Below, in pieces: positions 618-20,706 of a DNA stretch of 27,784 bases. A program made the position numbers and the translations under genes. The notes under the pieces are model-generated. The model was given only the letters and a program-made list of their open reading frames with translations. It was not told where the DNA came from and ran no database searches. The stretch covers positions 1 through 27,784 of the IMG/VR virus record IMGVR_UViG_3300008450_000353, one strand, 5' to 3'. The DNA comes from a virus. Position 1 is the stretch's first letter. Each line of letters opens with the position of its first letter.

Positions 618-1852
618 CATCTTATGTCTCACCATTTACTGGCGACGTCATTCAGCCTACTGACGTAAGCTATCGCTCGTTTACGCTATCTTCTAATACG
701 ACGCTGTCATGGCCCATCAATGGCAATGCTACTGGCAACTATGCTGCACGTATTATGGAGGTTACGCCATCTACAAGCGGCTTATCATTGATTATGCCGC
801 CTGCCAACCAGACTTCTGTTGGCACTGACTCGTTGATTCGCAATCTTGGCGCAACAGCATTCACTGTTAAAGATAGTTCTGGTGGTACCATCATTTCTAT
901 TGGCTCAGGTCAAGCGGAATATATCTATGTCACTTCTAACTCTACTGCTGCTGGTACTTGGGGTATCATTGCATTTGGTACAGGAACATCTAGCGCAGAT
1001 GCTGCAACCTTGGCAGGCTATGGCTTATTGGCCATTTCAGCAACACTAAATCAAAGCCATCCTGCAACCAATATTACCAATGGCTACACTTTTGTAGCTG
1101 CGGATAGAGCACAAACAAAAATTTGGCCTAGTGGTGCAGGCAGTGTAACATTGCCAGCTGTTGCTACGTTAGGCAATAACTGGTTCACCATCTTTAAGAA
1201 TAATGGCTCAGGTACGTTAACCATCAACACCACAGGCGTAGAGTTAATTGATGGTGGCGCATTTAAGCAATACGCGCCGGGTGAAGCCTCATTTGTTATT
1301 TGCACTGGTACGGAGTACGTTACTGTAGGATATGGCACTAGTAGTCAATTTGTATTTAATGCCATTACAAAGCCTGTAGTTTCAGGCGCATATACACTGA
1401 CACCGTCAGAAGCATCTAATATTATTCAGGAATACGTAGGGACTTTGTCAGGTAATGTTGTAGTAACGTATCCACCTATCGTCAATCTATACGTTATTAG
1501 TAATCAAACTGTTGATAATGGTTATACATTAACAGTTACAACAGGCATTCCAGGCTCGTTTTCAGCAACTATTCCACCTGGGCAGCAGGCAACGCTAGTT
1601 TGTGATGGCACTAACTTTTTCAATGCAAATACTACGCAATCCGGCGCAACTGCCATTAGCATAGTTTCAGGCACGGCATCTACACCGGGTCTTAATTTTG
1701 CTGCAGAAACTAATACTGGTATATATCGTAGTGGTGCAGGCGCATTTGACATCTCAATTTTAGGCACACAAAGATCATCTTTAACAGCAACGGGGCTAAC
1801 AATTACTGGTTCAGGTACGTTTACAACTGGCGTTAGTGGAGGCACATTCTGA
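614..1852 (+). CDS. Tail fibre-like virion protein with beta-rich repeats
   Basis: A protein of 412 residues, rich in Ser, Thr, Gly and Asn, with no charged clusters, as expected for an extended beta-structured tail protein. Several modules follow the same plan: a hydrophobic strand, then a Gly-rich turn, then a line such as SGTLTINTTGVELIDGG or SGGTIISIGSGQAEYIYV. The last 75 residues carry a motif common in phage fibres (PGLNFAAETNTGIYRSGAG followed by LTATGLTITGSGTF), which usually continues into a longer fibre or a chaperone domain. Here it stops soon after, at GGTF. It overlaps the upstream gene by 4 bases and the downstream gene by 1 (TGATG at 1850-1854). The likely role is a tail or receptor-binding component; an adaptor for a separate fibre is an alternative. 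Confidence 0.6.
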   Translation: MTSYVSPFTGDVIQPTDVSYRSFTLSSNTTLSWPINGNATGNYAARIMEVTPSTSGLSLIMPPANQTSVGTDSLIRNLGATAFTVKDSSGGTIISIGSGQAEYIYVTSNSTAAGTWGIIAFGTGTSSADAATLAGYGLLAISATLNQSHPATNITNGYTFVAADRAQTKIWPSGAGSVTLPAVATLGNNWFTIFKNNGSGTLTINTTGVELIDGGAFKQYAPGEASFVICTGTEYVTVGYGTSSQFVFNAITKPVVSGAYTLTPSEASNIIQEYVGTLSGNVVVTYPPIVNLYVISNQTVDNGYTLTVTTGIPGSFSATIPPGQQATLVCDGTNFFNANTTQSGATAISIVSGTASTPGLNFAAETNTGIYRSGAGAFDISILGTQRSSLTATGLTITGSGTFTTGVSGGTF

Positions 1853-3669
1853 TGTCAGATGAAAAAGTATTTGCGCTAGATACCGCAGCCGGCATACAGC
1901 GAGATGGTACTGTATTTGATCGTCAATTTTATGCAGATGGCCGTTGGGTGCGTTTTCAGCGCGGCCGCCCTCGTAAAATGGCAGGATATCGTGAGATTTC
2001 TAATGACTTTGCAGGCCCATCGCGCGGCATTTATGTTAGCCCACAAGCAGGTTTGAGTTACGTTTTTAGCGGCTACGCTGCAGGTTTACAAGTTAACCCC
2101 ATTAACAATATTGGTGTAGGCACCGGTGTTCTGGATTTTACTTTATCTAACTTTGCTGCTAATGCCAATAATCTATGGCAGTTTGATACGTTTTATGATG
2201 TAGCTGGTGCAGCCAATACGCTTGTTGCGCATCCTGGACAAAATCTATCAGATATTGCATCTGAAATTAACACGCCTGTATTGCAAGGTTTGATTACCGG
2301 TACGTCCATGGCGCAGTTAGCAGATACCGGCGGTTCGGCGCCTACAAATAACCCTATTTCAGTTAGTGGCGGCCTTGTTGTGCTGCACCCTTACATTTTT
2401 GTTTACGGTAATAATGGACTCATTAAGAATTGTGCTGCAGGTGATTTTACTGATTGGAATTCTGCTGATGCTAACGAGACTAACGTAGCAGGCACAAAAA
2501 TTGTACAAGGGCTGCCTGTACGAGGTGGCTCTAATGCGCCATCTGGGCTGTTTTGGTCTTTGGACTCATTAATTCGAGTTTCATACAACCCAACTACAAT
2601 TGGCGCGCAAACTTTATTTTGGCGTTACGACATTATTTCAAGTCAATCGTCCATTCTATCAAGCCAATCAGTAATTGAGTATGACGGAATTTATTATTGG
2701 TGTGGTGTTGATCGCTTCTTGCTATATAACGGCGTGGTCAAAGAAATCCCCAATGATATGAATCAAAACTATTTCTTTGACAATCTAAACTATGCGCAAA
2801 GAAATAAAGTTTGGGCATCCAAAGTGCCTCGCTTTGGCGAGATTTGGTGGTTCTATCCACGTGGCAACTCGACAGAGTGCAATGACGCCATTATCTACAA
2901 TATTCGTGAGAATCGTTGGTACGACGCAGGCCAAGCATTAGGCGCTCGTAGATCAGCAGGCTATTTCTCACAAGTATTTAGGTACCCAATTAATGCAGGT
3001 TGGGATCCAGAATCTCTTTATGCAGTTAACGCTGTTAGTATTACTAATCCTGGTAGTGGCTATACCAATGGCACATATACCGCTGTTGTTCTAACAGGTG
3101 GCACAGGCACAGGCGCGTATGCCACTATTACAGTGGCAGGCAATATTGTAACAGCAGTTCAGATTACTGCACACGGGCAAAGTTATACAGTAGGCGACAT
3201 TCTTACCGGTACGTTTGGTGGAGGCGCAGGATTTCAATTAACTGTTGATAGCACATATAATACAGTCTCTCTTTGGCAGCATGAGATTGGTACTGACGCA
3301 GTTAAAGGCACTAACGTTAACGCCATTGAGTCATATGTGGAAACCAATGACTTAGGTTGGGTAAGCGGCGGGCCTTCTGAACCGGCCATGGTAGGTAATA
3401 ATGTATGGCTGGATGTGTCCAGAATTGAGCCAGATTTCATACAATCCGGCAATATGGAGCTTTACATTACCGGTAGACCATATGCTCAAGCGGCGGATAA
3501 AGTATCTGATGCTTACACATTTAGCCCTGGTACTAACAAAATCGATCTACGTGAGCAACGGCGTGAGCTGCGATTGAAGTTTGTTAGCAATACTGCTGGC
3601 GGTGATTTCCAAACAGGCCGCATTCTATTGGTAGGCAATATTGGTGACGTAAGAGGCTACAATGGCTGA
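1852..3669 (+). CDS. Large phage tail/virion structural protein with an inserted GSGYT-type domain
   Basis: A protein of 605 residues. The first 60 residues contain the pattern IQRDGTVFDRQFYADGRWVRF and GRPRKMAGYR, found at the start of a family of podovirus virion proteins, and the body is beta-rich, with repeated Trp and Tyr (for example WWFYPRGNSTECNDAIIYN, NRWYD). Residues about 394 to 467 (bases 3031-3255) look like a separate inserted module: ITNPGSGYTNGTYT, then TGGTGTGAYATITVAGN and GQSYTVGDILTGTF. Sequence on either side (SLYAVN and SLWQHEIGTDAV) reads as one interrupted segment. The start ATG overlaps the previous stop, and its end overlaps the next gene by 8 bases. Probably part of the tail hub or stabilisation complex; the exact position in the virion is not visible. 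Confidence 0.6.
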   Translation: MSDEKVFALDTAAGIQRDGTVFDRQFYADGRWVRFQRGRPRKMAGYREISNDFAGPSRGIYVSPQAGLSYVFSGYAAGLQVNPINNIGVGTGVLDFTLSNFAANANNLWQFDTFYDVAGAANTLVAHPGQNLSDIASEINTPVLQGLITGTSMAQLADTGGSAPTNNPISVSGGLVVLHPYIFVYGNNGLIKNCAAGDFTDWNSADANETNVAGTKIVQGLPVRGGSNAPSGLFWSLDSLIRVSYNPTTIGAQTLFWRYDIISSQSSILSSQSVIEYDGIYYWCGVDRFLLYNGVVKEIPNDMNQNYFFDNLNYAQRNKVWASKVPRFGEIWWFYPRGNSTECNDAIIYNIRENRWYDAGQALGARRSAGYFSQVFRYPINAGWDPESLYAVNAVSITNPGSGYTNGTYTAVVLTGGTGTGAYATITVAGNIVTAVQITAHGQSYTVGDILTGTFGGGAGFQLTVDSTYNTVSLWQHEIGTDAVKGTNVNAIESYVETNDLGWVSGGPSEPAMVGNNVWLDVSRIEPDFIQSGNMELYITGRPYAQAADKVSDAYTFSPGTNKIDLREQRRELRLKFVSNTAGGDFQTGRILLVGNIGDVRGYNG

Positions 3670-3910
3670 TGTTAGTCTTATTTACGACCCAAGGTACCAT
3701 AGTTTTATGTCATGGGCGTCGTTAATGTGTGAGCTCTACGCGCCACAGCAATTACAAATACCATCAGATGAGATGAAATGGCAAGACTGGGGCGCAGGCC
3801 TAATCGCCATTGACGTGTTTGTTAATGAAGGCATTCCGGGCCCATACAAGTTTGATAATTGGCAAGATTGGGCCGCTGCATTAGTTGGCGCCATCAATCC
3901 TAGAGGCTAA
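3662..3910 (+). CDS. Small virion-associated protein, unknown function
   Basis: An 82-residue protein starting inside the last codons of the preceding structural gene (8-base overlap) and ending one base before the next ATG. The sequence has two similar short motifs, MKWQDWGAGLIAI and FDNWQDWAAALVGAIN, so it may contain an internal duplication of a W-Q-D-W-x-A-x-L helix. No signal peptide, membrane segment or enzyme motif is visible. Small acidic proteins of this kind lie between tail and internal virion genes in several podoviruses, so a virion or assembly role is likely from position. Function unknown. Confidence 0.65.
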   Translation: MADVSLIYDPRYHSFMSWASLMCELYAPQQLQIPSDEMKWQDWGAGLIAIDVFVNEGIPGPYKFDNWQDWAAALVGAINPRG

Positions 3911-3911
3911 T

Positions 3912-6900
3912 ATGGCATACACCGCTGTAAAACTAGCAGATGTACAAAAAGCGATTAACGCAGTCACTGCTGCAAACAAAAAATACACAGATGCACAAGC
4001 GTCGTCAAAAACTAGCCAGACTGCTGTTACTAACGCGCAAAAAGCTTTAGATGCGGCGCAGGCAAAGCTTGATAAGTTGACTGACGCGCTTAATGATGGC
4101 TCATATCTTTCTAAGAATGCCGCGTACCAGAATGCTCTTAAGGCTATTACAACTGCTGAAGCCGCTCGTGACAAAGCATACAATAGTATGTTTGATAGCG
4201 ACTACAAAAAAGCAAAAGCAGGTGAGGTTGCGTATGGAAAAGCTGTTACTGCAGTTGATAAAGCCTACGCTACACTAGATACAGCAAGAGCAAACGCAGA
4301 AAAAGCGTATCAAAATAGCACTATTAAGCCTGCGCAAACTGCTCTTAATACTGCCAACAAGACTTTTGATACAGCGCAAACTAAATATCAAAGTATTGTT
4401 GATTCAATTCAACCATATCTTGATCAACGCAACGAAGCAATTAGCAATGTTAGCAGTTATGTAGATACTATTAGAAATAGCCTTGGCGATGTCACTAAGA
4501 TGGCAGACGCAAAGCAGGTTCAAACTTTGCTGGGGCAAATTCAAACTGCAGTTAAAAATACTAAGTTACAAGATTTAATTACACCTGTTGTTGGCATGGC
4601 GTCTCAGATTGACCCTCTGAAGATGTCTGCAATTCCAACTGTAAATATTCAGGGCGCAAACCCTGACGCCTTTAGCAATATTGACCCCAATACAAAGTTG
4701 CCTATTCTTGATCAAGGTGGCTTAGATGCTGTGCTTGATCGCTACAAGAGCAACAAAATTGATGAACAGCAGTACCGTGACAACTGGAACAAATTTGGTT
4801 GGAACGTTAAATCTGACGCCTCTACTGCGATGCGTGGGCCTGCCATTGTTGGTCTGGACATGGGAACTGTTAGTGCCGGTATGTCTGGTGGCGCAAGAGG
4901 AATTGTAAAAGCTGGCACCAATCAGGCTGCATCAGATGCTGACTTCAAAAAAGCAGCGGAACAGGTTGGTCTAAACGTTAACGACTATTACACAACGCAA
5001 GAATTTTCTGGTGCTTATGGGACAAAAAGTACACAGAAAGTTCTTGATAAACAATCTTTATATAACGACATTGCGGATCGTACAAAAGACTTCTACATGG
5101 TTGCCAACTCTATTGATGGCAACAAACATGCTGCGTTGCTGTTTCGCGCTGATGGTTCAGGAAACTTAGTTCCTGTAACCAATGAGCAAGGCGCGCCTAT
5201 GGCGAATTACTACAACGCCACTAGAAACGTCACCGGAGAGACTTGGTATGGTGATCTATTACCTATTGCTGCAATAGGGTTGTCTTTTGCTATGCCAGGT
5301 CTTACCGGCGCGCTAGCAGGAAAAATTGGCGCGGCTACAGGCTTAGGCGCAGCTGCCAGTGGCGCACTTGCAGGCGCAGTAACCAACGCAGGCTTGGCGG
5401 CATTAACAGGCGGCAATATTGGGCAAGCTGCTCTTATGGGCGGTGCGGGTGCATTGGCACAAGTCAAATCCGCAGATATTGCCAATACTGCGCTAGGTGG
5501 CGTTGAAAATGTAAAGAAAGTTGCAGACTTTGCAGGCGTATCGTTAGGTCAAGCGCAACAAACCATTGCGCAAGGTATTAGTACAGGCTTGGCATCTGCA
5601 GCAATAGCGCCTGAAAAACTAGGTGAGAATATACTTGCCAATGTGGCAGGTAATTTTGCGTCAGCACAAGCGCAAAACGCCGTTACTAAATACATGGGCG
5701 AAAGTGGTGCATTACCTTTTATGGTGGATGCCGCAGGCAACGTAGCTCAAGTAGGGTCTGAAGCGCTTGTTCGTGGCGAGGATCTATATACTGCATTGCA
5801 AGCGGCAGCGCCTTCCATTGCAGCATCTGGTTTGAAAGCGCAACAAGCAGATACGCCATCTACAACGCAAAAAACAGCAGGTCTGCCTGTTGACCAAGTC
5901 ATGGCCATGGGCGATATGGGGCCTGACTATTCAAGCATTACTGGTCAAGCTGGTGCGGGCGCATTAAGCGGCTTTGGTACAGGTGCTGCAACGCCTACCG
6001 ATTGGAAATTGACTACGCCATTGCCTGGCTACGCAACAGGCCAATATGGCTATGAGGATATACAAAGACAAGCAGCTTTAGGCGCCTTAGGCTCAATAGA
6101 TGGCTCATCTATTGTCACGAGGCCTGTTGACCCGCGTACTTTAGAAGAAGTTGAAGTTATAGGTCAGCGTGAAATTGAAATGCAGCCTTGGCGATATTTG
6201 CCTAGTGAAGAGCAAGATACGCCTGAGTTTGATGAGTATACAAAAGCGTCGCAAGAATTCCCACTAACTGAATATACTCCAGAAGCTTTAGCAGGCATGG
6301 GGAATATTAGAACTGCTGCAACAGGCACATCTGGCGCTGGATCATTAGGTTTATTGTCGACGCCTACTCTGTCAGGCGCAACGCCACAAGCGCCTACACC
6401 AACAATGTTGCAAACTAAGATGCCGCAGACAGCGTACGACCAGCTCTTAGAATTGCAGCAGTTATACCCTGGCTTAGCCGACGTGGATCGCGGGCTATTG
6501 GATGTAATCTCATCGCGCCTGCCTGATCAAAGCTATTACACATATGGTGCGCAGCAACAACAGTCGCCACTTGATATGTATACGCAGTTCTTAAAACAAG
6601 AAGATGGCATGCAACAACCACAACAACAAGTAGGCCTTGGCCCTACAGAAATGGAAAAAACTAGCCTTATTCGACCTGATGAGTTTAGTTTTGACGCAGC
6701 CCGTATGGCAGGCTTACAACGCTCCGATCGAGCAGAGCCTTTTATGTTTAGAAGTGGTGGCGATGTGCATGTTCCACAGTTTATTACAGGTAAAACAGGA
6801 TATTATGTAGAAGGCGAAGGCGATGGCCAATCTGATAGCATACCGGCTATGTTGGCTGATGGTGAGTACGTATTTGATGCAGATACTGTAGCAGCTTTGG

Positions 6901-7037: not shown

Positions 7038-7937
7038 ATGGCTCTTACCGTCGGCGAAGCGCTACCTGATGTAAATGTAGCGCAAACACAAAAAACCACA
7101 GCACCTAGTTGGTACACCGACTACCTTAGCAATATTGCGCAACAAGGTATGCAAGCTGGGCAGCAAGCTCAGTTTGTAGGCGCGACGCCTTTGCAGCAAC
7201 AAGCTTTTGATTTGACCAAAGCCAATGTAGGTACATACGCGCCTACGCTGCAAGCCGCTGTTAATATGGCCCAAACAGGCGCTGGTACAACAGCGCCATC
7301 TGTGGTAGGCCAATACATGGATCCCTACACTTCACAAGTTGTAGGTGAGATTGGGCGACTTGGGCAACGTAATATTGTAGAAAATCTTGCCCCTGGTGCA
7401 GTATCTGGCGCAGTAGGTACTGGCCAATTTGGCTCACAACGTGGAGCTCAGGTGCTAGGCCGTACCATTCGTGACGCATTAGCAGATATTGGTGGCCGCC
7501 AGTCGATGGCGCTTAGCCAAGGATACCAAAATGCTATGACGGCTGCGCAAAACGACTTAGCACGTCAATTGATGGGCGCGCAACAGCTTGGAAGCTTGGC
7601 CGGTACGCAACAACAGCTTGGTTTAGGCGACGTTAATGCGCTGGCTACACTAGGTGCGCAGCAACAGCAAATTGGGCAGGCGCAACAATTATTCCCATTG
7701 CAAACGTTAGGCACCACGTCGCAGCTTATTAAGGGCTATAGTATACCTACAGATGTGGCATCCACATACAAAGGCCCATTGCCTGGTGCGTATGCTGCTT
7801 CGCCATTGGCGCAAATTGCGGGTCTTGGCTCATTGCTTGGTGCAAACGTAGGTTCTAATACAGTAGGCGGCACATTAGGTGATGTTATTTCCAAGGGCGC
7901 ATCAAGTGCTTGGGATTGGCTAAGCAAGCAATTTTAA
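7038..7937 (+). CDS. Gln/Ala-rich internal virion protein
   Basis: A protein of 299 residues beginning 3 bases after the previous stop, with GAAAGG at 7025-7030 as ribosome binding site. The pattern SWYTDYLSNIAQQGMQ, then TPLQQQAFDLTKANVGTY, VGQYMDPYTSQVVGEIGRLG and GAVGTGQFGSQRGAQVLGR is characteristic of a family of phage virion proteins placed between the tail hub and the ejection proteins. The middle is rich in Gln/Ala (LGAQQQQIGQAQQLFP), and the C-terminus is Gly/Ser-rich with a final SAWDWLSKQF amphipathic helix. No catalytic motif is seen. It is probably packaged in the capsid or the tail lumen and released on DNA entry; this is inferred from family and neighbours. Confidence 0.6.
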   Translation: MALTVGEALPDVNVAQTQKTTAPSWYTDYLSNIAQQGMQAGQQAQFVGATPLQQQAFDLTKANVGTYAPTLQAAVNMAQTGAGTTAPSVVGQYMDPYTSQVVGEIGRLGQRNIVENLAPGAVSGAVGTGQFGSQRGAQVLGRTIRDALADIGGRQSMALSQGYQNAMTAAQNDLARQLMGAQQLGSLAGTQQQLGLGDVNALATLGAQQQQIGQAQQLFPLQTLGTTSQLIKGYSIPTDVASTYKGPLPGAYAASPLAQIAGLGSLLGANVGSNTVGGTLGDVISKGASSAWDWLSKQF

Positions 7938-7946
7938 GAGGCTATT

Positions 7947-9329
7947 ATGGCACTACCAACAATTCCTAAAGCGCCTACAGGCATTGGCCTTGATGAAGGC
8001 GCGCAATCAGAATATCTTGACGCGCTAAATAAAACGTTAACCGCTCTTGAAGCGCGCCAAGGTACCAATATGTGGAACGTGGCAGCGCAGTTTCTTGATC
8101 CTGGCCGCACCGGTACATTTGGCGAGGCTCTTGGTCGAGCTGCCGGGGCTGTGGCGCAAGATCAAGCTAAGCAACGTGAGCTTGAACTACCTATTGCGCA
8201 ATTACGTGCTCAAATTGCAGGCCAAAAGTATGAACTGGCCAACCAGGCTGAGGGTATGAAAATGCTGGGGCAATTGCTTGGCACTTCACCAGAGCAAACT
8301 GCCGAAGGCGTACAAACAGGTCGCTTCCCAGCAGGTATAACTCGCAAAATTACACCTGATATTTACGCCGCCTTTGCTGCCAAGTACCCTAAGCTTGGGG
8401 AGATTCTAAAAAACTCAGCGGCAATGGAAAATGATGCCATTAAGAACTTTCTTGAGATGGTCAAATCTGGAGTTTCTTTGGCTGAGATGGAAGCCAAGTT
8501 TGGCCCTGAGTTTTTGCAAATGATACCACCTGAGTATCTCAATGCTTTGCGCCCTGGCTCAACTGGTACAACTGTGCCTACAACACCTTTGGCGCCTAGT
8601 GGTCGTGCAGCGCCATCACCTGTACAACAGCCACCTACAACTATCGACACATCCCGCAGTGATGCTGGTGTGCCATTGGCTGTTCGTGCTGAGGGTATGA
8701 AAGAGCGTCAAAAGCTGTCTGATGAAGAATGGAAAGAGCAACGCAACGTTTTCAATTCTTGGACACCGGATCGAGTTAATACCAACGTCAGAGATCTAAA
8801 AGAGTTGCATGACTTGGCTGATAAGTACCCACAAATTTGGGGCTTAATGCAACAGCAAGGTCTCTTGGCTGGTTTGCAAGCTGCAGCAGATAAGGGTGTT
8901 GCTACTCCATGGGGCGCATTCTCAGTGCCTGTACAAGAATTCTTATCCAAAGTTAAACTGTCGCCTGATGAACAAAAAGTCTTGGCTCGTGCCAGTACCA
9001 TCATTGCCCGTCAATTCTTTGAAAATGCTCGAGTCAATAAGTCAGTTCTTGGCCCACAGATTTCTAATGCCGACGTAACTCTATTGCAAGCCCCAATGGT
9101 ATCTCCTCGGGATGCTGCTGACGCCATCAAATACTACGCCAAAGAAAGTATTCTAGGCATGAAGATGCGCCAAGATTACTTTACTGCATTACGTGATTGG
9201 GATAAGCAAACAGGTTTGCGTGTGCCCTTTGGTGACTTCTTTGGCTCAAGGCCTTATAACGATATTGCAACTCGCTACCAAAGTCTGTACGGACAATTAT
9301 ATGAGCAACACTACCCATACAAGAGGTAA
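7947..9329 (+). CDS. Internal virion protein, helical
   Basis: A protein of 460 residues. The ribosome binding site AAGAGG at 7936-7941 overlaps the upstream stop codon. The N-terminus has the pattern NMWNVAAQFLDPGRTGTFGEALGRAAGAVAQDQAKQRELELPIAQLRAQ, seen in a large family of phage virion proteins of unknown structure, given here in two parts: WNVAAQFLDPGRTGTFGEAL and GRAAGAVAQDQAKQRELELP. A Pro/Thr-rich linker at residues about 200 to 235 (TGTTVPTTPLAPSGRAAPSP) separates it from a helical C-terminal domain (residues 250 to 460) with many charged residues. No peptidoglycan hydrolase motif is visible. It belongs to the set of long proteins at 3.9-10.5 kb and is probably a DNA ejection or internal core protein; evidence for that is composition and order. 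Confidence 0.55.
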   Translation: MALPTIPKAPTGIGLDEGAQSEYLDALNKTLTALEARQGTNMWNVAAQFLDPGRTGTFGEALGRAAGAVAQDQAKQRELELPIAQLRAQIAGQKYELANQAEGMKMLGQLLGTSPEQTAEGVQTGRFPAGITRKITPDIYAAFAAKYPKLGEILKNSAAMENDAIKNFLEMVKSGVSLAEMEAKFGPEFLQMIPPEYLNALRPGSTGTTVPTTPLAPSGRAAPSPVQQPPTTIDTSRSDAGVPLAVRAEGMKERQKLSDEEWKEQRNVFNSWTPDRVNTNVRDLKELHDLADKYPQIWGLMQQQGLLAGLQAAADKGVATPWGAFSVPVQEFLSKVKLSPDEQKVLARASTIIARQFFENARVNKSVLGPQISNADVTLLQAPMVSPRDAADAIKYYAKESILGMKMRQDYFTALRDWDKQTGLRVPFGDFFGSRPYNDIATRYQSLYGQLYEQHYPYKR

Positions 9330-11657: not shown

Positions 11658-11699
11658 GGTGCTACACGTGAATTATACATTAAGGAGCCAGCGTGAGAA
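11658..11699 (-). promoter_or_regulatory. Minus-strand promoter with conserved TGTAGCACC start-site element
   Basis: On the minus strand: TTCTCA (11699-11694) as -35, a 16-bp spacer, a perfect -10 box TATAAT (11677-11672), 5 bases, then TGTAGCACC (11666-11658). The stop codon of the TS-family gene lies within the -10 box. The promoter at 23206-23247 has the same layout. It would drive the three genes from 11635 to 10525. Confidence 0.55.
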
Positions 11700-12458
11700 C
11701 GCATGAGAACTGTCAATGTGCTTATCCATCAACATATGAGCCTCGTATCTCTGAATCCTTGGGGGTGGGTCAGCTACAGGTTGATGCGTTGACTTTTCAA
11801 TAATGTCTTTAAACATCTTCATTCTGGACTCGTAAACGTGGAATGAGCCAACAGATATTGTCAATGTACCTACTTCTGCATTAAGCAAAGCTGCTACAAT
11901 TTCTTGTAAGAATGAGAAAGTAGGAAGATCATTAGCCATCCCCCATAGAATGTCTTGGCTACGCATTATGGCTCTTGCGTTAAGCCGGCCTCGGCGTAGA
12001 CGAAACTCAATGGCAGTTGTGCAAGGCACGTCTTTGGCCTCGCTATCCATATGAGCAACGTCAGTGCCGTACATAGGAATAACTGCACGACGGCTCATAG
12101 GGTCTTTTTGAAGTACACTAACAACATGGCGTACGCCATATTTACCAAACCAATAAGAACCATAGTTGCTATTTAACTTGCCATTAACGACAATTTTGCC
12201 CCATTGCGCAGCATGCTCGGCAATAGAGGTATCAAATGGATCAGCCTTTATGTACCAAGCCATTTCACGCTTAAGATAATTAAGATTAAAGTTACGACCG
12301 ACAAAGTTGTTAAAACGCACGAAAGGATTAACAGTATAAGTAAAGTTCTCAATTTCCAAAGTACCCTCTCCCCGTGGCTCAGATCGAGTTCCACGGTATT
12401 CAAGTGCTTTATATATGAGAATGAGATCTTCTTCACGATGAATGAGTGGTATTTCCAT
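11673..12458 (-). CDS. Thymidylate synthase family enzyme; probable deoxycytidylate (dCMP) hydroxymethylase
   Basis: A 261-residue protein, close to the 264 residues of E. coli thymidylate synthase. Visible TS-family features: DPMSRRAVIPMYG (SRR phosphate-binding arginines), VPCTTAIEF with the nucleophile at Cys146, MRSQDILWGMANDLPTF, and SFHVYESR with His207 and Tyr209. Counting without gaps, catalytic and base-binding residues fall on the same numbers as in E. coli TS. The base-reading position, Asn177 in TS (LPFN), is Asp177 here (MAND). In phage T4 dCMP hydroxymethylase the equivalent residue is Asp, which favours cytosine. So it probably transfers a one-carbon unit from methylene-tetrahydrofolate to dCMP; a deviant dTMP synthase is the alternative. 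The ATG at 12458 replaces an upstream in-frame start; it overlaps the kinase gene by 26 bases. Confidence 0.75.
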   Translation of the reverse strand: MEIPLIHREEDLILIYKALEYRGTRSEPRGEGTLEIENFTYTVNPFVRFNNFVGRNFNLNYLKREMAWYIKADPFDTSIAEHAAQWGKIVVNGKLNSNYGSYWFGKYGVRHVVSVLQKDPMSRRAVIPMYGTDVAHMDSEAKDVPCTTAIEFRLRRGRLNARAIMRSQDILWGMANDLPTFSFLQEIVAALLNAEVGTLTISVGSFHVYESRMKMFKDIIEKSTHQPVADPPPRIQRYEAHMLMDKHIDSSHAFSRWLLNV

Positions 12459-13377
12459 AATCGCTCTCAGTAATGTGGTATGGCAAATGCGGGAAGTGCT
12501 GCATATGATATAGCGGCGGTGGCAGTTTGTACACTTGTACACCGGCGTTAATAGCCCAACTATAGGCGTTATTGCCTAAGGCAAAGATTCGGCTAGGCTT
12601 AAGCTGATTAATGAATTTTGCGTCAGTTGGTGTGCCTAGATAATTTTGTGTGTTGATCCAGTAAAGATCTTTCTCAGGCACGCCTTCGTTTTCTAGTGCA
12701 TGAGCCAACATACGACTGGGGCCATCATCGTCCAAAAAGTTAATGAATGGCACAACAGCTGCAGATGCTCGCATATTAGTGCGAGGGCCTTTATCACAAA
12801 GCATAAGGATATTGCCTTCTTTAAAGCAACCACCACCGGATGCTCGATTAGGCACTGACTTTGCCATGACTTTTTCTAATAGGTCACTAACAGTATCTTT
12901 TTCATAATCATAGTGCACGATGGGCAAGCATGTATGCATAGGCAGCGTTTCATACGCATCATATACTTTGCCTAGTTGCTCAGTGGTGTCAAGGTATTCA
13001 ATATCTTTGCGTGTCTTGAAAGTATCAACGCATAAAGCAAACTCAGGTTGGCAATGGATAACCACGGCGCCACGAGTTAATGCCACACGTTCTAGCATTC
13101 GATGGCGTGGCATATCTACACGAGTTACGCCATTACGATAGACCTCGCCATAGATTGGCTCTGATAACCAACTGCGATCAAGAATAACGTGGTCATCATA
13201 GGTTAATGCTTGTGACATCGATCTGAAGTATGTCTTGCATAATTCTTCAGACGACATACCGGTATAAGGGCCATGTTTTACGACATTGGTCAATCTTTCA
13301 TGATTAAGCATTTGTCGCAACTTTTCAGATAGCGTGGTTTTACCCCCACCATCTGGCCCTTCAAGAATTATGATCAT
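12433..13377 (-). CDS. P-loop deoxynucleotide kinase fused to a uracil-DNA-glycosylase-like domain
   Basis: A 314-residue, two-part protein. Residues 1 to 175 are a thymidylate-kinase-type P-loop kinase: Walker A EGPDGGGKTT (6-15), the DRSW motif at 67-70 (VILDRSWLSEPIYGEVYR), and a helix with RGAVVIHCQPEFA. It should phosphorylate a (deoxy)nucleoside monophosphate. After a Gly-rich linker (about 178 to 190), residues 190 to 314 (GNILMLCDKGPRTNM, LKPSRIFALGNNAYSWAINA, and a late His-rich segment LYHMQHFPHLPYH) resemble the fold of the uracil-DNA glycosylase superfamily, where a P-x-x-I-x-A-L-G-N-x-A segment is usual. Start ATG at 13377 overlaps the upstream stop (ATGA), with GGAAGG 11 bases earlier. 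A kinase for the product of the neighbouring TS-family enzyme is a natural reading. Confidence 0.65.
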   Translation of the reverse strand: MIIILEGPDGGGKTTLSEKLRQMLNHERLTNVVKHGPYTGMSSEELCKTYFRSMSQALTYDDHVILDRSWLSEPIYGEVYRNGVTRVDMPRHRMLERVALTRGAVVIHCQPEFALCVDTFKTRKDIEYLDTTEQLGKVYDAYETLPMHTCLPIVHYDYEKDTVSDLLEKVMAKSVPNRASGGGCFKEGNILMLCDKGPRTNMRASAAVVPFINFLDDDGPSRMLAHALENEGVPEKDLYWINTQNYLGTPTDAKFINQLKPSRIFALGNNAYSWAINAGVQVYKLPPPLYHMQHFPHLPYHITESDYGNTTHSS

Positions 13378-14264
13378 GCAAGCCACCCTTCCACTTTTTG
13401 CATTGTTTCATGCAAAGTTGCAACGTTTAGTTTGTCTGCTTGCAACCAGGCCAAGTATTCTCTTGCCTCGTCGCCCATTTTCTCTATTTCTTTTAGTGTG
13501 TATCCATATGCAGGATGGATCATCCCGGTTTCTTTGGGGTCGCTACCGAGTATAGCTCCAGCATGTGCAGCATGTAAGTATCTGACGCGCCACCATCCGC
13601 ATCCGGCATGTTCATAGGTAGGACAAAGCACGCCTTTATAGGATCCATATTCCCAGACAATTTGAGACTCCAAAATCCTAGGTTGTCCAAGTGATTTTCC
13701 ACCCACGGCACGAACAGGCCAGGTAAGATTTTGCCGATCTGCCCACTCATGCGCATCCTTTGATAATGAGGCGTTGTACCATTCAGTTTTTCTTTCTTGC
13801 CAACGTAGTCTATGTACTTTAGGCAAGTTGTACAAAGGTGATGGGTCCCAATGACGTATATCATCGACCGGCAGACCCATCTGTTTAACGTCGCCCCATG
13901 GAAATAAAGGTGCTAACCATGTACGATTGGTAAGTAGCTTGGTGTCAATAAAGTTGCCCCACGTAGGTAGCAATTTTTGAAACGACCAATCATCAAGACA
14001 AAGCCAAGCGTCTGGCCGTTGTTGCAATGCCCATATAGCGCCATTAACATTAACTGCGTTATGGTCTACAGGGTACAGGTAGATGAAGACCTTTTGATAC
14101 TCAGAAAGATCCTCACCTGCCCCTACTGCTCGATGATCTACATCATGTACCAGTCGCTCAAACGCGTTACGCATCAACTCAGGTACTGACACAAACTTTG
14201 TGGAACTTGCACGCTGTGGATGATTTGTATGCGTCTCGGTGACGCCGGTTATAAGGATCTTCAT
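13374..14264 (-). CDS. Putative glycosyltransferase-like phage protein
   Basis: A 296-residue protein. It opens with a Rossmann-like strand and loop (MKILITGVTETHTNH), followed by TKFVSVPELMRNAFERLVHD, then a second strand FIYLYPVDHNAVNVNGAIWA and a DDW motif (PDAWLCLDDW). The C-terminal half has GCGWWRVRYLHAAHAGAILG and DPKETGMIHPAYG. The overall plan (two Rossmann halves and a WWRxRYxxAxxAGAIL site near the end) matches phage proteins that I associate with GT-B type glycosyltransferases, but no catalytic residue can be fixed by eye. It sits directly upstream of the kinase and the TS-family enzyme with ATGA and TAATG overlaps, which is what is expected for a sugar transfer step onto a hydroxymethylated base. 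GGAAG precedes the ATG. Confidence 0.45.
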   Translation of the reverse strand: MKILITGVTETHTNHPQRASSTKFVSVPELMRNAFERLVHDVDHRAVGAGEDLSEYQKVFIYLYPVDHNAVNVNGAIWALQQRPDAWLCLDDWSFQKLLPTWGNFIDTKLLTNRTWLAPLFPWGDVKQMGLPVDDIRHWDPSPLYNLPKVHRLRWQERKTEWYNASLSKDAHEWADRQNLTWPVRAVGGKSLGQPRILESQIVWEYGSYKGVLCPTYEHAGCGWWRVRYLHAAHAGAILGSDPKETGMIHPAYGYTLKEIEKMGDEAREYLAWLQADKLNVATLHETMQKVEGWLA

Positions 14265-14473
14265 TAGTCTTCCAGTTCGATATACCCTGCAGCAACGTCA
14301 TGTGCAATATCGCCTGTACGGCCGCCCGCAGCAACGTATTCCTCGACTGTCATACCATTTTCATATAATGCAAACCGGTCTGCGGCTAGCGTATTATTGC
14401 GCTTAGGGTTTTCCTCAACCAGCACTTTAATCTTTGCTTGCTTATTGACACGGCGGCGCTTTACCTCTGACAT
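14264..14473 (-). CDS. Small basic/acidic phage protein (69 residues), unknown function
   Basis: A 69-residue protein. The start at 14473 was chosen because AAGGAGA lies 7 bases upstream; an earlier in-frame ATG at 14515 has only a weak site (TTGAAAAG). The N-terminal 25 residues are very basic (VKRRRVNKQAKIKVLVEENP), the C-terminal part is acidic (TVEEYVAAGGRTGDIAHDVA, ending YIELED). It may be a small nucleic acid-binding protein; its NPKRxxxxA region looks like the end of a helix-turn-helix or ribbon fold, but no family is recognised. It lies between the helicase and the putative glycosyltransferase and shares a TAATG junction with the latter. Confidence 0.65.
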   Translation of the reverse strand: MSEVKRRRVNKQAKIKVLVEENPKRNNTLAADRFALYENGMTVEEYVAAGGRTGDIAHDVAAGYIELED

Positions 14474-14516
14474 AGCAGAATCTCCTTGTGTAAAAATAGT
14501 GGTGGTGTATGACATG

Positions 14517-16181: not shown

Positions 16182-16813
16182 TGGCAAGGACCTCCATTGG
16201 ACTTCCTAAAATGACACCATTTACATCCTTGCGATGGGCGTGGTGCAAAGATATCGTCATTCTCAATCTTGGTAATTCGAGTAGTAACCCATTCTTTAAG
16301 CTTCTCATGCTCTAATCGCGAATATGTTTGCCCCGCGTGGCGCTTGTTAAGATCAATATAGCAGATTTCAGTGGTAACAGTTTCTACTCTTGGATACTCA
16401 GCCATTATGATAGTTGCGTAAAGCTTGAGCTGATCGCCGTAATCCCTTTCTTTACCTGTCTTCCAATCCATAACGTGAGCAGTAGCGCCATCAAGCCACA
16501 GCACATCATAAATGCCACGAAGCCAAGCATCGGCAGCAAGAAAATCAGTGCGAGTCCAGTCTTTTTTGATAGCGAATTGCATCTCACTCTTGGCCCCTTT
16601 TGAAATTAGCTCGGCAACGTAGTCATTCCAATACTCAAAAGTATCTTCCAACTTTTGTTGATGATCAATAGCATTTTCAAATGCTGTATGTATATCTTTA
16701 CCACGTTGCGCAGCGTCCCCGGTAGGTTCTTTAAGGCCATCAATACGAGTTAGCCGGTACTTATATGGGCATTCTTCGTATGACTTAATGGATGAGTGAG
16801 AAAAGCTACGCAT
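16175..16813 (-). CDS. Cas4/RecB-like PD-(D/E)XK nuclease with probable Fe-S cluster
   Basis: A 212-residue protein. The N-terminal SHSSIKSYEECPYKYR, AQRGKDIHTAFE (His42), GIYDVLW (Asp103), VMDWKTGKERDYGDQLKLYA (Asp116, Lys118, Gln128, Tyr132) are the ordered motifs of the RecB-family nuclease domain. Cysteines at 15, 197, 200 and 210 follow the one-plus-three pattern that holds an iron-sulfur cluster in Cas4 and AddB proteins. No CRISPR genes are nearby, so a Cas4-like exonuclease for phage DNA ends is more likely than a spacer-acquisition role. It lies between polymerase (TAATG junction) and VRR-NUC (7-base overlap). It likely acts as a 5' exonuclease in recombination or end resection; inferred from family. 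Confidence 0.85.
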   Translation of the reverse strand: MRSFSHSSIKSYEECPYKYRLTRIDGLKEPTGDAAQRGKDIHTAFENAIDHQQKLEDTFEYWNDYVAELISKGAKSEMQFAIKKDWTRTDFLAADAWLRGIYDVLWLDGATAHVMDWKTGKERDYGDQLKLYATIIMAEYPRVETVTTEICYIDLNKRHAGQTYSRLEHEKLKEWVTTRITKIENDDIFAPRPSQGCKWCHFRKSNGGPCQW

Positions 16814-18630
16814 TATTTAGTTTCCTGATAAGAGTTACCAACTTTATAGTCACTCACCATAGGCACATCCATGGGCAAAGCATGGCACATAGCCTGTGTT
16901 AAGCATTCTGCCTCACGTTCCACAGTATCCTCAGGTGTAGAAATAACCAGTTCATCATGGACGCTTAACAATAGGCGACTACCTTGCCGTGTCTTTTGGA
17001 ATAGCAACATGGCCGCCTTAGCTTGATCAGCAGCTGAGCCTTGAATGAGTAGATTAACACCTTTGTAATCAAACTCACGTAGCCGGCCATTGATAATCTT
17101 AGGTGGCTCCATTTTGACCAGACGCCCGCCAAGGGTTTTGATGGGTTGGCCTAATTTGTACCTTGTCCTCATGGTGGCTTGCATCGCCTTGAGGCCTGGA
17201 GCCACGGCTGTGGTATAGGCATCCATCAATGTCTTGGCCAAGTCGTAGTCGATCTCAAGCATCTCACTGATTTTCTTTGGGCCAGCCCCATAGAGAATAG
17301 CAAATGAGACGCCTTTTGAGTAAGTACGACTAACCTCACGGCCGGATGCCTCGGTCATCATCTTGGCTGCGTAGGTATGCAAATCAGCACGAGCATCTTG
17401 CTGGTATTGCTGCATAAGATTGCCACCTTCAAAATGAGCAAAGATACGCAACTCTTGAGCATTGAAGTCGCAGGCTACCAGTTTATGGCCTTCATCCGGT
17501 AGAATGAAACTACGTACCAAAGGCAATGGCGCCACATTGAGATCCGGTGGTAGGTTTACCTTCGGATATCTAATGGGTGCATTTTGGAAATTAGGAGTGC
17601 TACTGAGCCGTCCTGTTCGTGTGCCTCCACGCTCACCTCTAACACTGTTCCAATTGGTATAGATTCTGCCGGTATGCTGGCCCGATGTGAGCCAAGGGTC
17701 AATGAAAGTTGAGAGGCATGTAGATAGATTTGCACGATACCTAAGGACATCTCGCAAGTGTTCATGAGTAAGCATCTCCTCTAGTGCTTCTTTAGTGGCT
17801 TGTTTCTGGCCTTTGTCTGTGGTAGGCCAGGCTTTATTTTTGTCCCAATGCTCCGATTGATAAATACTTTCGACCAGCTGAGAATCGCTGTCGACATTCA
17901 ATTCAGGAGAATTCAACAATGCACGAACCCAAACATTACAAGCCTCAATATCTTTTATGGCCTGTTCTTTTGCTGCTGATAACCCAGCCACATCAACTCG
18001 AACGCCTAAACGTGAGTTTTCAAGCAACAGTGGGATCAGTTCAAGTTCACGTATATACGGCGCCTGCTGAGCCGGTAAAACGTTTGAAGCGGTAAACTCA
18101 AATAGCTTAGCAGTAAGCCGCACGTCAGCCTTGGCGTAACGACCTACCAGCTCGACGGGTCCTTTGCTGATGTGTGCGCCCCATTGTGACTTTTTTCGTT
18201 TAGCGTCAGGGACGTTATTAATGATCCATTCTTTAAGCTCATCTCGTTCTTCTGGGGTGTCGAGGCTCCAATGGACCACGAGATCTTTGAGCGATAATGA
18301 AGGTACATGTGGATCGAAGAGAAAAGAGAGAATGAGAGTGTCGTGTAACCTAGATGCGTCGGGGATAGCCAAGCCAAAATGAGTATCAGCAACATCCAAG
18401 TCAAATAGGGCGTTATGAAAGCATAGCGGTCGATTTGAATCATACATTTCTCCCATCATGCGCCTTACGGCGTCAAAAGTAGAATTATTACCTGTAATAT
18501 GGCCAAAAGCAAAATAGCCATCAGCGAACTGACCTGTAGGATCATACACAGCAAGACCCACCGGTTTAGGCGGATACGTCGGGCGAGCCTCGATGCCTTC
18601 TGTCTCAAAGTCAAGGAATATAGGTATCAT
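16813..18630 (-). CDS. Family A DNA polymerase with 3'-5' exonuclease
   Basis: A 605-residue protein. The exonuclease part has motif I FLDFETEG (Asp7, Glu9), motif II FHNALFDLD and motif III YAKADVRLTA. The polymerase part has motif A VACDFNAQELRIFAH (Asp388), motif B SRTYSKGVSFAILYG (Arg435, Lys439, Phe443, Tyr447) and motif C SVHDELV (His558, Asp559). Phe at the 443 position predicts discrimination against dideoxynucleotides, unlike T7 polymerase. Length and layout match phage replicative family A enzymes that lack the 5' nuclease domain. Start at 18630 (ATG in a TAATG junction with the lipoprotein gene) is preferred over a TTG 24 bases upstream. It is the replicative polymerase of the phage. 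Confidence 0.95.
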   Translation of the reverse strand: MIPIFLDFETEGIEARPTYPPKPVGLAVYDPTGQFADGYFAFGHITGNNSTFDAVRRMMGEMYDSNRPLCFHNALFDLDVADTHFGLAIPDASRLHDTLILSFLFDPHVPSLSLKDLVVHWSLDTPEERDELKEWIINNVPDAKRKKSQWGAHISKGPVELVGRYAKADVRLTAKLFEFTASNVLPAQQAPYIRELELIPLLLENSRLGVRVDVAGLSAAKEQAIKDIEACNVWVRALLNSPELNVDSDSQLVESIYQSEHWDKNKAWPTTDKGQKQATKEALEEMLTHEHLRDVLRYRANLSTCLSTFIDPWLTSGQHTGRIYTNWNSVRGERGGTRTGRLSSTPNFQNAPIRYPKVNLPPDLNVAPLPLVRSFILPDEGHKLVACDFNAQELRIFAHFEGGNLMQQYQQDARADLHTYAAKMMTEASGREVSRTYSKGVSFAILYGAGPKKISEMLEIDYDLAKTLMDAYTTAVAPGLKAMQATMRTRYKLGQPIKTLGGRLVKMEPPKIINGRLREFDYKGVNLLIQGSAADQAKAAMLLFQKTRQGSRLLLSVHDELVISTPEDTVEREAECLTQAMCHALPMDVPMVSDYKVGNSYQETK

Positions 18631-18878
18631 TAGTAGAAATAGAGAGGTGCGCAAGTTACGTCAACGACGACATCTGTTGTATGGTTACCAATCTTACGCT
18701 TACCCATAACCAATACAGCGCGCATACGACTAACTTCGCATTCTTTGACTGCAATGATAACTTCATTGCGGCTCATGGCATTGATCTCTTTATCAAGTAT
18801 CAAAGCCTGCGATGGGTTGGATGTTGATGAGCAACTCACCAGCATCGTACATACAAAGATTAATGTAAACATTTTCAT
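18630..18878 (-). CDS. Small phage lipoprotein
   Basis: An 82-residue protein starting MKMFTLIFVCTMLVSCSS. A short basic start, a hydrophobic run, and the lipobox LVSC with Cys16 mark a bacterial lipoprotein signal processed by signal peptidase II. The mature part is small, with two more cysteines (ECEVSRMRAVLVMGKRKIGN, VVVDVTCAPLYFY) that could form a disulfide. The ATG follows TTGAGGATTGAA, so an earlier in-frame TTG is part of the ribosome binding site. It lies directly ahead of the polymerase (TAATG). A lipoprotein in the replication block points to the host outer or inner membrane, for example superinfection exclusion or receptor blocking. That role is unproven. Confidence 0.75.
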   Translation of the reverse strand: MKMFTLIFVCTMLVSCSSTSNPSQALILDKEINAMSRNEVIIAVKECEVSRMRAVLVMGKRKIGNHTTDVVVDVTCAPLYFY

Positions 18879-19176: not shown

Positions 19177-19923
19177 TTAGAAGCGATCTGACTCAGCAAC
19201 AGGCGCAGCAGGCGCATCATCTTCCATTTGGCCTACAGTCTCAATAGCTCTTTGAACCTCGTCCTGAGAGCGCTTGATAATTGCCTGCACAATCGCCGGA
19301 TCGTCAATCGCCTTGACCATACTGAAGGTTACCTTGAATTGCGTCTTAGGATCCGGTACAACAGCAACCTCAGTAATGACAGCCAATGGTGGGCGCTTTA
19401 GCGTTGCGGCGACTGTTTGTACATAGTTGGAATAATTCTTAATGCTGGTGACCGGCGGTCGAAGCGCCGCGACCTCTGCCGCAGCCACAGACTCCGCAGT
19501 GGTAATGCTATCTGCTGGGATGAGAAGGAGTCGACGTGTTTCACGGCAGGCTTTACCTTTACCACCGGTTGGTGACGAGCCCCACTGGTTTTGTGGGCAA
19601 CCTTCGCAGTTTTCATGTTGTGGTGCCTCCGCAGTTGTGGCAGGTCCCATGCCGGTAGCTACCGGAGCAATGGCAAAGCACTTAGGTCCTACTATCTTGG
19701 TAGGATCATAACGATCCGAGTAGTACAGGCGCTCAATTGGAGCTGCAAGAATAACGCAGGCCAGTTTATTGCCAGTGATAGGGTCACCGCGGTAAGTTAG
19801 AACTCCACCTTTGGTTGACAGGAACGTGGCCGTAAGACCGGATTGTTCGGCCTTGACATTCTCTGTGGCCATAGCGGCCAGTTGATCTTCAAACAGTGCA
19901 ACAGCATTATTAGTTTTGGCCAT
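19177..19923 (-). CDS. Zinc-type phage replication protein, possible ssDNA-binding protein
   Basis: A 248-residue protein. The start ATG at 19923 follows TTGAAAGGAG; a longer in-frame extension upstream lies within the opposite reading of the preceding gene and was dropped. The centre has C82, then HENCEGCPQNQWGSS (C106, C109), and GGKGKACRETRR (C126), a likely zinc site of the kind present in a widespread phage protein family coded between recombination and polymerase genes. The N-terminal third has short strands (ATFLSTKGGVLTYRGDPITG), and the C-terminus is acidic (VGQMEDDAPAAPVAESDRF), like the acidic tails of ssDNA-binding proteins. A ssDNA-binding role is a guess from the acidic tail, position and family memory. 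Confidence 0.5.
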   Translation of the reverse strand: MAKTNNAVALFEDQLAAMATENVKAEQSGLTATFLSTKGGVLTYRGDPITGNKLACVILAAPIERLYYSDRYDPTKIVGPKCFAIAPVATGMGPATTAEAPQHENCEGCPQNQWGSSPTGGKGKACRETRRLLLIPADSITTAESVAAAEVAALRPPVTSIKNYSNYVQTVAATLKRPPLAVITEVAVVPDPKTQFKVTFSMVKAIDDPAIVQAIIKRSQDEVQRAIETVGQMEDDAPAAPVAESDRF

Positions 19924-19942
19924 GATGGCTCCTTTCAACGAG

Positions 19943-20308
19943 TTACTTGCGACGAACGGAAAGTTCCCAGACGGAAGACATTTTCGTACCGGGTATAAGA
20001 TCTCCAGACTCCCACCGCTCACGGAAGACTTGAGAGGATAAACGCTTGTGAAGAAGTTCAAATTGATTTGTCTTTGCAACATGATCGTAGAAGACGTTCC
20101 AATCCTCAATGGATGGATGATGCGTTTCACGCATGGTGCAGCTTGCTTTTTCCGACGCGGCTTGCGTAATTCCTGCAAGAGCCATTTGTTCCATAATGTC
20201 GGCTTCAATGGCGGCCAACTTTTCGTTTGCCTTTTTGATGTCCTCATTTAAGCTTTCCTTCAAAGCTTTGGTTTCGACATACTTATCAATTAGGTCGGAG
20301 ATTTTCAT
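19943..20308 (-). CDS. Coiled-coil phage protein, unknown function
   Basis: A 121-residue protein. Residues 1 to 45 are a charged helix likely to form a coiled coil (ETKALKESLNEDIKKANEKL). The second half has HHPSIEDWNVFYDHVAKTNQ followed by ELLHKRLSSQVFRERWESGD and LIPGTK, a pattern of a conserved phage family found upstream of ssDNA-binding-like genes. Its position just before the zinc-type protein and its overlap with the MazG-like gene (ATGA) suggest a helper role in replication. No catalytic motif is visible. Confidence 0.65.
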   Translation of the reverse strand: MKISDLIDKYVETKALKESLNEDIKKANEKLAAIEADIMEQMALAGITQAASEKASCTMRETHHPSIEDWNVFYDHVAKTNQFELLHKRLSSQVFRERWESGDLIPGTKMSSVWELSVRRK

Positions 20309-20706
20309 TCGCCACCTTTGTATTGTGAGAGGATAGCAATCATCTCGCCTTCGGGGCCAGTCCAGCCAATGGGTTTGACCACATCGTATTGGCGACCTCG
20401 AGTAGAGCGTATGAAATCATCGGCCGGTTGCTTTTTCATATTTGCCGCATGTACCACTTCAAATAGATCATCAAAAGGTAGGCCCATTGCATGAGCACAA
20501 CCAAGAGCAACATACACAAGATCGACAATGGCGTCAGCAGCATCAACCAAAGAATTTTCTTCATAGGCTTTCATGTACTCAGAAATTTCCTCGAGGATGA
20601 ATCGCACAAAATAGGACGACTCTTCAGGTGAAAGCAAATGAGGAAAGGTTGATATTGGCAAGCCCATTTTTTTCCTGAACTTACCTACTTGCTCAAAGGT
20701 AGTCAT
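20305..20706 (-). CDS. MazG-like all-alpha NTP pyrophosphohydrolase
   Basis: A 133-residue protein. It has the metal-binding pattern of the all-alpha nucleotide pyrophosphohydrolase superfamily: ILEEISEYMKAYEE (Glu39, Glu40, Glu43) followed by DAADAIVDLVYVALG (Asp55, Asp58, Asp62). A conserved C-terminal part (HAANMKKQPADDFIRSTRGR, VVKPIGW) is typical of phage versions. The superfamily includes MazG, HisE, dimeric dUTPases and T4 dCTPase/dUTPase. It should hydrolyse a (deoxy)NTP to the monophosphate and pyrophosphate; the base preference is not readable. If it takes dCTP it would supply dCMP to the TS-family enzyme at 11673. Its start overlaps the small gene upstream and its stop the coiled-coil gene downstream. 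Confidence 0.8.
   Translation of the reverse strand: MTTFEQVGKFRKKMGLPISTFPHLLSPEESSYFVRFILEEISEYMKAYEENSLVDAADAIVDLVYVALGCAHAMGLPFDDLFEVVHAANMKKQPADDFIRSTRGRQYDVVKPIGWTGPEGEMIAILSQYKGGE

Follow-up and report, generated by a model that had tools for sequence, protein, structure and literature searches.

A predicted T4-like cytosine hypermodification pathway, with an unusual kinase-uracil-DNA glycosylase fusion, in an unrelated phage lineage

Can the masking of cytosine known from phage T4, whose DNA carries glucosyl-5-hydroxymethylcytosine, be carried out by a compact gene cluster in a phage of another lineage? This question is raised by three overlapping genes in IMGVR_UViG_3300008450_000353, a viral record of 27,784 bases which, as a whole stretch, is called the window here. 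They encode a GT-B glycosyltransferase, a kinase fused to a domain of the uracil-DNA glycosylase (UDG) superfamily and a member of the thymidylate synthase (TS) family. The gene content of the cluster, its linkage, its active-site similarity and the folds of its proteins were established by computation. It is quite probable that cytosine in this phage DNA is replaced by glycosylated 5-hydroxymethylcytosine (hmC), made by the products of the cluster. At the level of sequence and fold there is good support for cytosine hypermodification of the T4 kind in a lineage unrelated to T4, together with a kinase-UDG fusion that is unusual. The features that such a pathway would use are the following.

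13374..14264, minus strand: GT-B glycosyltransferase, 296 amino acids; predicted sugar transfer to hmC in DNA
12433..13377, minus strand: two-domain kinase, ATG at 13377, 314 amino acids; GTG at 13386 is a possible start
12436..12828, minus strand: UDG-superfamily domain of the kinase protein, C-terminal, about residues 184-314
11673..12458, minus strand: TS-family enzyme, predicted dCMP 5-hydroxymethylase, ATG at 12458, 261 amino acids; GTG at 12542 gives a longer alternative
20305..20706, minus strand: MazG/PRA-PH-type nucleotide pyrophosphohydrolase (PF01503), candidate dCTPase
16813..18654, minus strand: family A DNA polymerase (PHROG 17 'DNA polymerase', E 5.3e-92; a DNA polymerase I-type PHROG is matched too)

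On the minus strand the genes are read in the order glycosyltransferase, kinase, TS-family gene. The kinase start overlaps the glycosyltransferase end by ATGA and the TS-family gene overlaps the kinase end by 26 nucleotides. The three overlapping genes that a preliminary description had placed at 11673-14264 are present as claimed, all on the minus strand, and its MazG-like gene was recovered with a PF01503 score of 55.5 bits (cut-off 21.3).

The T4 pathway to glucosyl-hmC (gp42, gp56, gp1 and beta-gt) comprises the same four kinds of enzyme, the kinase and the pyrophosphatase being alike by kind only. In T4 gp56 acts as the dCTPase and gp1 as the deoxynucleoside monophosphate (dNMP) kinase. 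In the window phage the MazG-type enzyme would convert dCTP to dCMP, to which the TS-family enzyme would add a hydroxymethyl group. The kinase protein, a presumed dNMP kinase, would phosphorylate hydroxymethyl-dCMP (hm-dCMP) toward hm-dCTP and the family A phage DNA polymerase would incorporate the modified base. The GT-B enzyme could then transfer a sugar, presumably from a host nucleotide-sugar, to the hydroxyl of hmC as the likely acceptor in DNA, and the product may block restriction and other DNA-targeting defences. Such a T4-like route had been put forward in the preliminary description. It is supported by the active site, the beta-gt fold, the linkage and the association in other phages, and the pathway as a whole we still infer. 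The beta-gt gene of T4 also adjoins gene 42, and the window glycosyltransferase has the beta-gt fold. Unlike T4, the window has a different genome type, a kinase with a UDG-like domain and a glycosyltransferase about 10% identical to beta-gt.

The TS-family enzyme and conservation of the cluster

The TS-family enzyme was assigned by PF00303 (71.3 bits, cut-off 24.3). In sequence searches of the PDB it matched MilA, a CMP hydroxymethylase (E 9.9e-17), and T4 dCMP hydroxymethylase (E 4.9e-13), with E. coli thymidylate synthase next (E 7.3e-12). Sixteen of the 20 active-site positions of T4 gp42 that were compared are identical in the window enzyme, among them E60, W82, S94, Y96, R123, R124, D145, C148, R168, D171, D179, H216 and Y218, and the catalytic positions are all retained. 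Window C146 corresponds to T4 Cys148 and window D177 to T4 D179, both being invariant in 28 non-redundant sequences; the dCMP-type specificity residue claimed earlier for this TS-family protein was thereby confirmed. The hydroxylation residues are also present as S97, Y99 and D143 (T4 Ser94, Tyr96 and Asp145), and none of the 28 clade sequences aligned departs from Asp at D143. The window enzyme and its clade are without the thymidylate-synthase Asn177 (E. coli numbering), in place of which there is Asp, and the residue after the catalytic Cys is Thr in the window enzyme, not His. As a control, the Td proteins of FBB1 and Aes508 were found to have Asn at the position of Asn177.

It was shown earlier that the T4 gp42 mutants C148S and D179N give negligible product, and that substitutions at S94, Y96 and D145 cause a strong deficiency, linked by the authors to hydroxylation (PMC6400193). 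The same paper ties D179 to cytosine choice, and the MilA work concurs on the role of this Asp (PMC5175136). In the MetaGPA study, TS-family proteins have mostly Asp177 in cytosine-modified contigs and mostly Asn in unmodified ones, and work is cited in which an Asn-to-Asp change converts thymidylate synthase into a dCMP methylase (PMC8670742). Hydroxymethylation of dCMP by the TS-family enzyme is strongly supported by these residues.

A contig of 58,573 bases encodes proteins 100% identical to the glycosyltransferase, the kinase and the TS enzyme, and terminase and portal matches are present in a 58.6-kb relative. Scans of viral contigs gave 37 glycosyltransferase, 22 kinase and 59 TS loci. 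The order glycosyltransferase-kinase-TS never varies among the 111 loci compared, which include the window itself (L001) and many repeats of one contig; where a gene of the trio is absent, the absence is always at the edge, where the locus ends. The non-redundant alignments, with the window included, hold 28 rows for the glycosyltransferase, 27 for the kinase and 28 for the TS enzyme. MazG was found in all 18 related records searched. Because of the invariant gene order and the constant presence of MazG, the linkage of the trio is not due to chance. In MW202545 and Caulobacter phage RW, which have related terminases, no glycosyltransferase or TS match was found; therefore, the module is not fixed in every relative. 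The longer clade records are mostly about 50-60 kb. One clade member, IMGVR_UViG_3300027747_000004 (L033), has 110,994 bases, about twice the length of the other longer records, which a concatemer, a chimera or a genuinely larger phage could explain.

The glycosyltransferase and the kinase fusion

For the third protein neither Pfam nor PDB sequence searches gave a usable match, and PHROG 14998, a family of unknown function, was matched at E 8.5e-20. An AlphaFold2 model built from 41 sequences reached a mean pLDDT of 92.2. With this model Foldseek placed T4 DNA beta-glucosyltransferase at ranks 1-6 of the PDB (E 1.8e-8 to 3.1e-6, TM-score to query 0.54-0.60), the best match having E 1.8e-8 and TM 0.59/0.52. 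VIA-align gave Z 18.6 to the same enzyme over 280 aligned residues (3.6 A, 10% identity) and Z 16.4 to T4 alpha-glucosyltransferase. With T4 DNA beta-glucosyltransferase first in both structure searches, the earlier suggestion of a possible glycosyltransferase gained ground. The model has a GT-B fold with its closest resemblance to a DNA glucosyltransferase, though the selenosugar synthase SenB is near and the identity is low. The glycosyltransferase residues D91/D92 could not be reliably equated with D100 of T4 beta-gt, and that correspondence was dropped.

One viral scan with a mixed alignment returned 454 glycosyltransferase relatives. Twenty-nine distant records were chosen because they encode a relative of the window glycosyltransferase. 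A TS-family gene is present in 27 of them, each with an Asp-type member; the 27 form 17 clusters at 90% identity and 6 at 50%, so that the independent count is nearer 6 to 17. Asn-type TS occurs in these records only as the additional Td proteins of FBB1 and Aes508. The two records without TS are G023, a 38-kb record that may be a fragment, and C48C1, in which a TET/JBP dioxygenase gene lies directly upstream of the glycosyltransferase relative. A TET search at E 0.001 matched 2 of 41 records, only C48C1 lying over the cut-off, and gave no match in any of 12 window-clade records. The hydroxymethyl group of the C48C1 system would presumably be made on DNA by oxidation, unlike in the window clade. 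A C5-cytosine DNA methylase (PF00145) is found in 25 of the 29 distant records and in none of the 12 window-clade records. In locus L286 a second gene at 7206-8231 stands right after the glycosyltransferase and before a MazG/dUTPase-like gene, its start resembling the glycosyltransferase family by eye, and a comparable gap of about 1 kb occurs in many relatives.

The kinase protein has an N-terminal P-loop kinase domain of the thymidylate-kinase-like type (about residues 1-175), which matches PHROG 761 at E 1.8e-21 over residues 4-175 of the 317-residue form; its Pfam matches are all below the cut-off. The motifs GxDxxGK and DRxW are invariant in 43 kinase sequences, and relatives across nearly the full length are found in AXL3, PW916 and MW202621. 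The preliminary description was correct in calling this protein a nucleotide kinase and overlooked the fused UDG-like domain. Pfam UDG recognises 14 of the 42 C-terminal domains (best 9.7e-6), none of these being that of the window. For the model of this domain (pLDDT 79.8) VIA-align gave a best Z of 9.0 to UdgX, and 49 of the 50 rows listed are UDG/SMUG/MUG proteins; Foldseek alone gave weak matches (best E 7.2e-3). By its modelled fold the C-terminal stretch of 131 residues belongs to the UDG superfamily. The sole non-UDG protein among the 50 best matches was PDB 9qhs chain A (Z 8.5), the family A DNA polymerase of phage phiLo with a modified template. The range of that alignment is very wide, and a discrete UDG domain there would be a guess.

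Glycosylase active sites have a GExPG-type motif A and an HPS-type motif B. In the alignment both motifs are lost from the window clade, where CDKGPR and PPPL-type sequence stand instead, and most distant rows shown have HPQ at the second motif. Excision activity is unlikely in the window phage because the glycosylase motifs are absent in its clade. In this phage the UDG-like domain probably lacks glycosylase activity and probably helps to recognise the pyrimidine.

An Asp-type TS adjoins the kinase-UDG fusion in all 25 distant fusion loci, from which AXL3 is separate. Clustered at 90% and at 50%, their TS proteins give 22 and 10 groups. Of the loci, 24 have a MazG-like gene, 21 a dCMP deaminase and one a glycosyltransferase relative. 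The MazG of 22 of the 25 loci is matched by that of the window, which shares 42% identity over 109 residues with the MazG beside the AXL3 kinase. Positions 282-5361 of IMGVR_UViG_3300026184_000291 (L375) hold an AXL3-type module (MazG, kinase-UDG, Asp-type TS and dCMP deaminase) together with a glycosyltransferase relative, linking both systems.

Related phage modules and alternative explanations

Among the closest annotated TS relatives are those of Xp15 and of the Acinetobacter phages MD-2021a and Effie (40, 38 and 34% identity), which keep all 14 key positions compared with the window enzyme. A carbamoyltransferase gene lies within a few genes of TS in each of these three phages, as against none of 14 window-clade records. 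Xp15 also has a hydrolase, gp38, related to the window MazG (E 1.3e-15) and a weakly related kinase (E 0.002 to the window kinase, 4e-6 to a clade relative). According to the MetaGPA paper, a carbamoyltransferase of this class acts on hmC DNA (PMC8670742). The window clade differs from these MetaGPA-type clusters, predicted to yield 5-carbamoyloxymethylcytosine, in having a glycosyltransferase instead of the carbamoyltransferase and no dCMP deaminase; in the window cluster what appears to be the same supply module would lead to another final decoration.

The module of AXL3 and PW916 resembles that of the window in having the same two-domain kinase, a related MazG (AXL3) and an adjacent Asp-type TS. 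It differs in including a dCMP deaminase, and AXL3, PW916 and MW202621 have no relative of the glycosyltransferase. The TS active site of AXL3 departs from that of the window at T4 positions 82, 94 and 124, and its UDG part keeps the HPQ motif that is lost in the window. In the AXL3 paper the phage DNA resisted 35 of 37 restriction enzymes, the two that cut having A/T-only sites; the authors took the cluster as one for thymidylate synthesis and left DNA modification open (PMC7504290). Resistance to the enzymes tested is given in PMC7653180 as 81.9% for T4gt (hmC), 94.3% for T4 (glucosyl-hmC) and 89.9% for Xp12 (5-methylcytosine). Therefore, restriction resistance alone cannot separate the three chemistries. 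Published sugar-cytosine phages include RB69 (PMC6024577) and Thanatos (PMC12838424).

Could the same genes serve another end? Ordinary thymidylate supply, in which thymidylate synthase, thymidylate kinase and a dUTPase-like MazG feed dTTP and the glycosyltransferase is unrelated, would agree with the database names of the first two proteins. It is extremely improbable, as the dUMP-determining Asn is Asp, Thr replaces His after the catalytic Cys and the glycosyltransferase has a T4-like DNA glucosyltransferase fold. Moreover, searches of 14 clade records gave no dCMP deaminase, no ThyX and no dihydrofolate reductase, which makes a thymidylate pathway unlikely. The TS enzyme could also be taken for a dCMP methylase like that of Xp12, with 5-methylcytosine in the DNA, since Asp at the cytosine-specifying position alone would suit a methylase and is also present in AXL1, a phage of the Xp12 genus. 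The AXL1 protein has Asp at T4 position 179, Asn at 145 and Pro at 149; at 145, which T4 requires for hydroxylation, the window clade has Asp instead. A gene annotated as dihydrofolate reductase lies two genes away in the AXL1 cluster (its Pfam match is just below the cut-off, 24.1 against 25 bits), unlike in the clade records, and the glycosyltransferase requires a hydroxyl acceptor. The contrast with AXL1 favours hydroxymethylation in the window, as a comparison with a single phage that stands in for Xp12 and whose enzyme is a likely, inferred methylase. Together these points make the methylase explanation very improbable. In AXL1 itself (L436, 8623-9564 and 7674-8162 for the two genes) gp63 is a candidate dCMP methylase, which could explain 5-methylcytosine in the Xp12 genus; for AXL1 this base is only suggested by its authors (PMC9206674).

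Two further explanations accept hmC and differ in what becomes of it. In one, hmC is left bare and the glycosyltransferase acts elsewhere, for example on a host or virion glycan. GT-B enzymes take many acceptors, and a relative of the glycosyltransferase adjoins UDP-galactopyranose mutase, an enzyme that also serves surface glycans, in some phages (Aes508, FBB1, DSL-LC01 and C48C1). We regard bare hmC as improbable, the best structural match being T4 DNA beta-glucosyltransferase and the position of the gene being fixed beside those of the kinase and the hydroxymethylase; in addition, an Asp-type hydroxymethylase co-occurs in 27 of the 29 distant records and TET is adjacent in one other. Galactofuranose as the sugar found no support, UDP-galactopyranose mutase being absent from all 14 records of the window clade. 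In the other explanation, which we consider unlikely, the kinase-UDG fusion, instead of making hm-dCDP, works on hmC after its incorporation into DNA and activates the hydroxymethyl group for further modification. Flipping bases out of DNA is a property of UDG folds, and the fusion stands with an Asp-type synthase in all 25 distant loci, mostly without a glycosyltransferase. The existence of 5-hydroxymethyluracil DNA kinases (PMC7653180) counts for this explanation. There is a small chance that the fusion is their cytosine counterpart, shared by the window clade and AXL3-like phages, in which a dead glycosylase-derived domain flips hmC and the kinase phosphorylates its hydroxymethyl group. Against this, a DNA kinase would have to compete with the glycosyltransferase for one and the same hydroxyl, and such a pathway needs a dNMP kinase from elsewhere; Xp15 seems to encode a short kinase that lacks the UDG part.

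Glycosylated hmC is still preferred as the predicted product of the four window enzymes, and several observations have to be set against it. Four of the 20 T4 gp42 positions differ, K28 being Arg, F174 Trp, R220 Ser and S144 having no counterpart, or Lys in another alignment. It is doubtful that these four residues, which are folate/pterin contacts in T4, define the dCMP hydroxymethylase family. Gly stands in place of Ser at T4 S94 in 25 of 27 glycosyltransferase-linked distant Asp-type enzymes, and therefore not all of these enzymes carry the full T4 signature; the PW916 enzyme has the Asp yet is annotated as a deoxyuridylate hydroxymethyltransferase. The MazG gene and the trio are 6 kb apart, and proteins of the MazG kind commonly serve housekeeping functions. 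Most kinase-UDG loci are without a glycosyltransferase (present in 1 of 25 loci, 1 of 13 records), from which it follows that the kinase fusion is not tied to glycosylation. The likeness of the glycosyltransferase to beta-gt is one of fold and not of sequence (hhalign probability 4%, E 0.0096, in addition to the 10% identity), and SenB scores nearly as high in VIA-align (Z 17.3). No special sugar-donor gene was found, the search being for UDP-galactopyranose mutase in 14 related records, and therefore a host sugar donor must be assumed.

Surrounding genes and biological meaning

Two other frames near the cluster and the MazG gene are of interest.

14264..14515, minus strand: 83-amino-acid gene with no assigned family, upstream of the glycosyltransferase and translationally coupled to it
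19177..20247, minus strand: open frame, part of which (19264-19770) is like Xp15 gp40 (28.9% identity, E 1.9e-12)

The 83-residue gene and the glycosyltransferase start are joined by a TAATG junction. The small gene is found upstream of the glycosyltransferase in many, not all, related loci, and Pfam and PHROG searches with its protein gave no match. The Xp15 gp40 gene is part of the carbamoyltransferase-MazG-kinase-TS cluster of that phage. Beside the MazG gene, the product of 20861-21403 matches PHROG 624 'DNA binding protein' (E 8.5e-47).

If the predicted pathway is true, T4-style cytosine masking would exist as a compact cluster in an unrelated phage lineage with genomes of roughly 50-60 kb. 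The family of the window glycosyltransferase, about which little has been described and whose window member falls in PHROG 14998, would then gain a likely function, the decoration of hmC that comes from a dCMP hydroxymethylase or from TET. Such enzymes could help to label and map modified cytosine. The recurrent kinase-UDG fusion is a candidate cause of the unexplained restriction resistance of AXL3, and it offers a way to ask why base modification makes use of a fold known from DNA repair. Should the fusion prove to be a kinase that acts on DNA, it would represent a new class of cytosine hypermodification.

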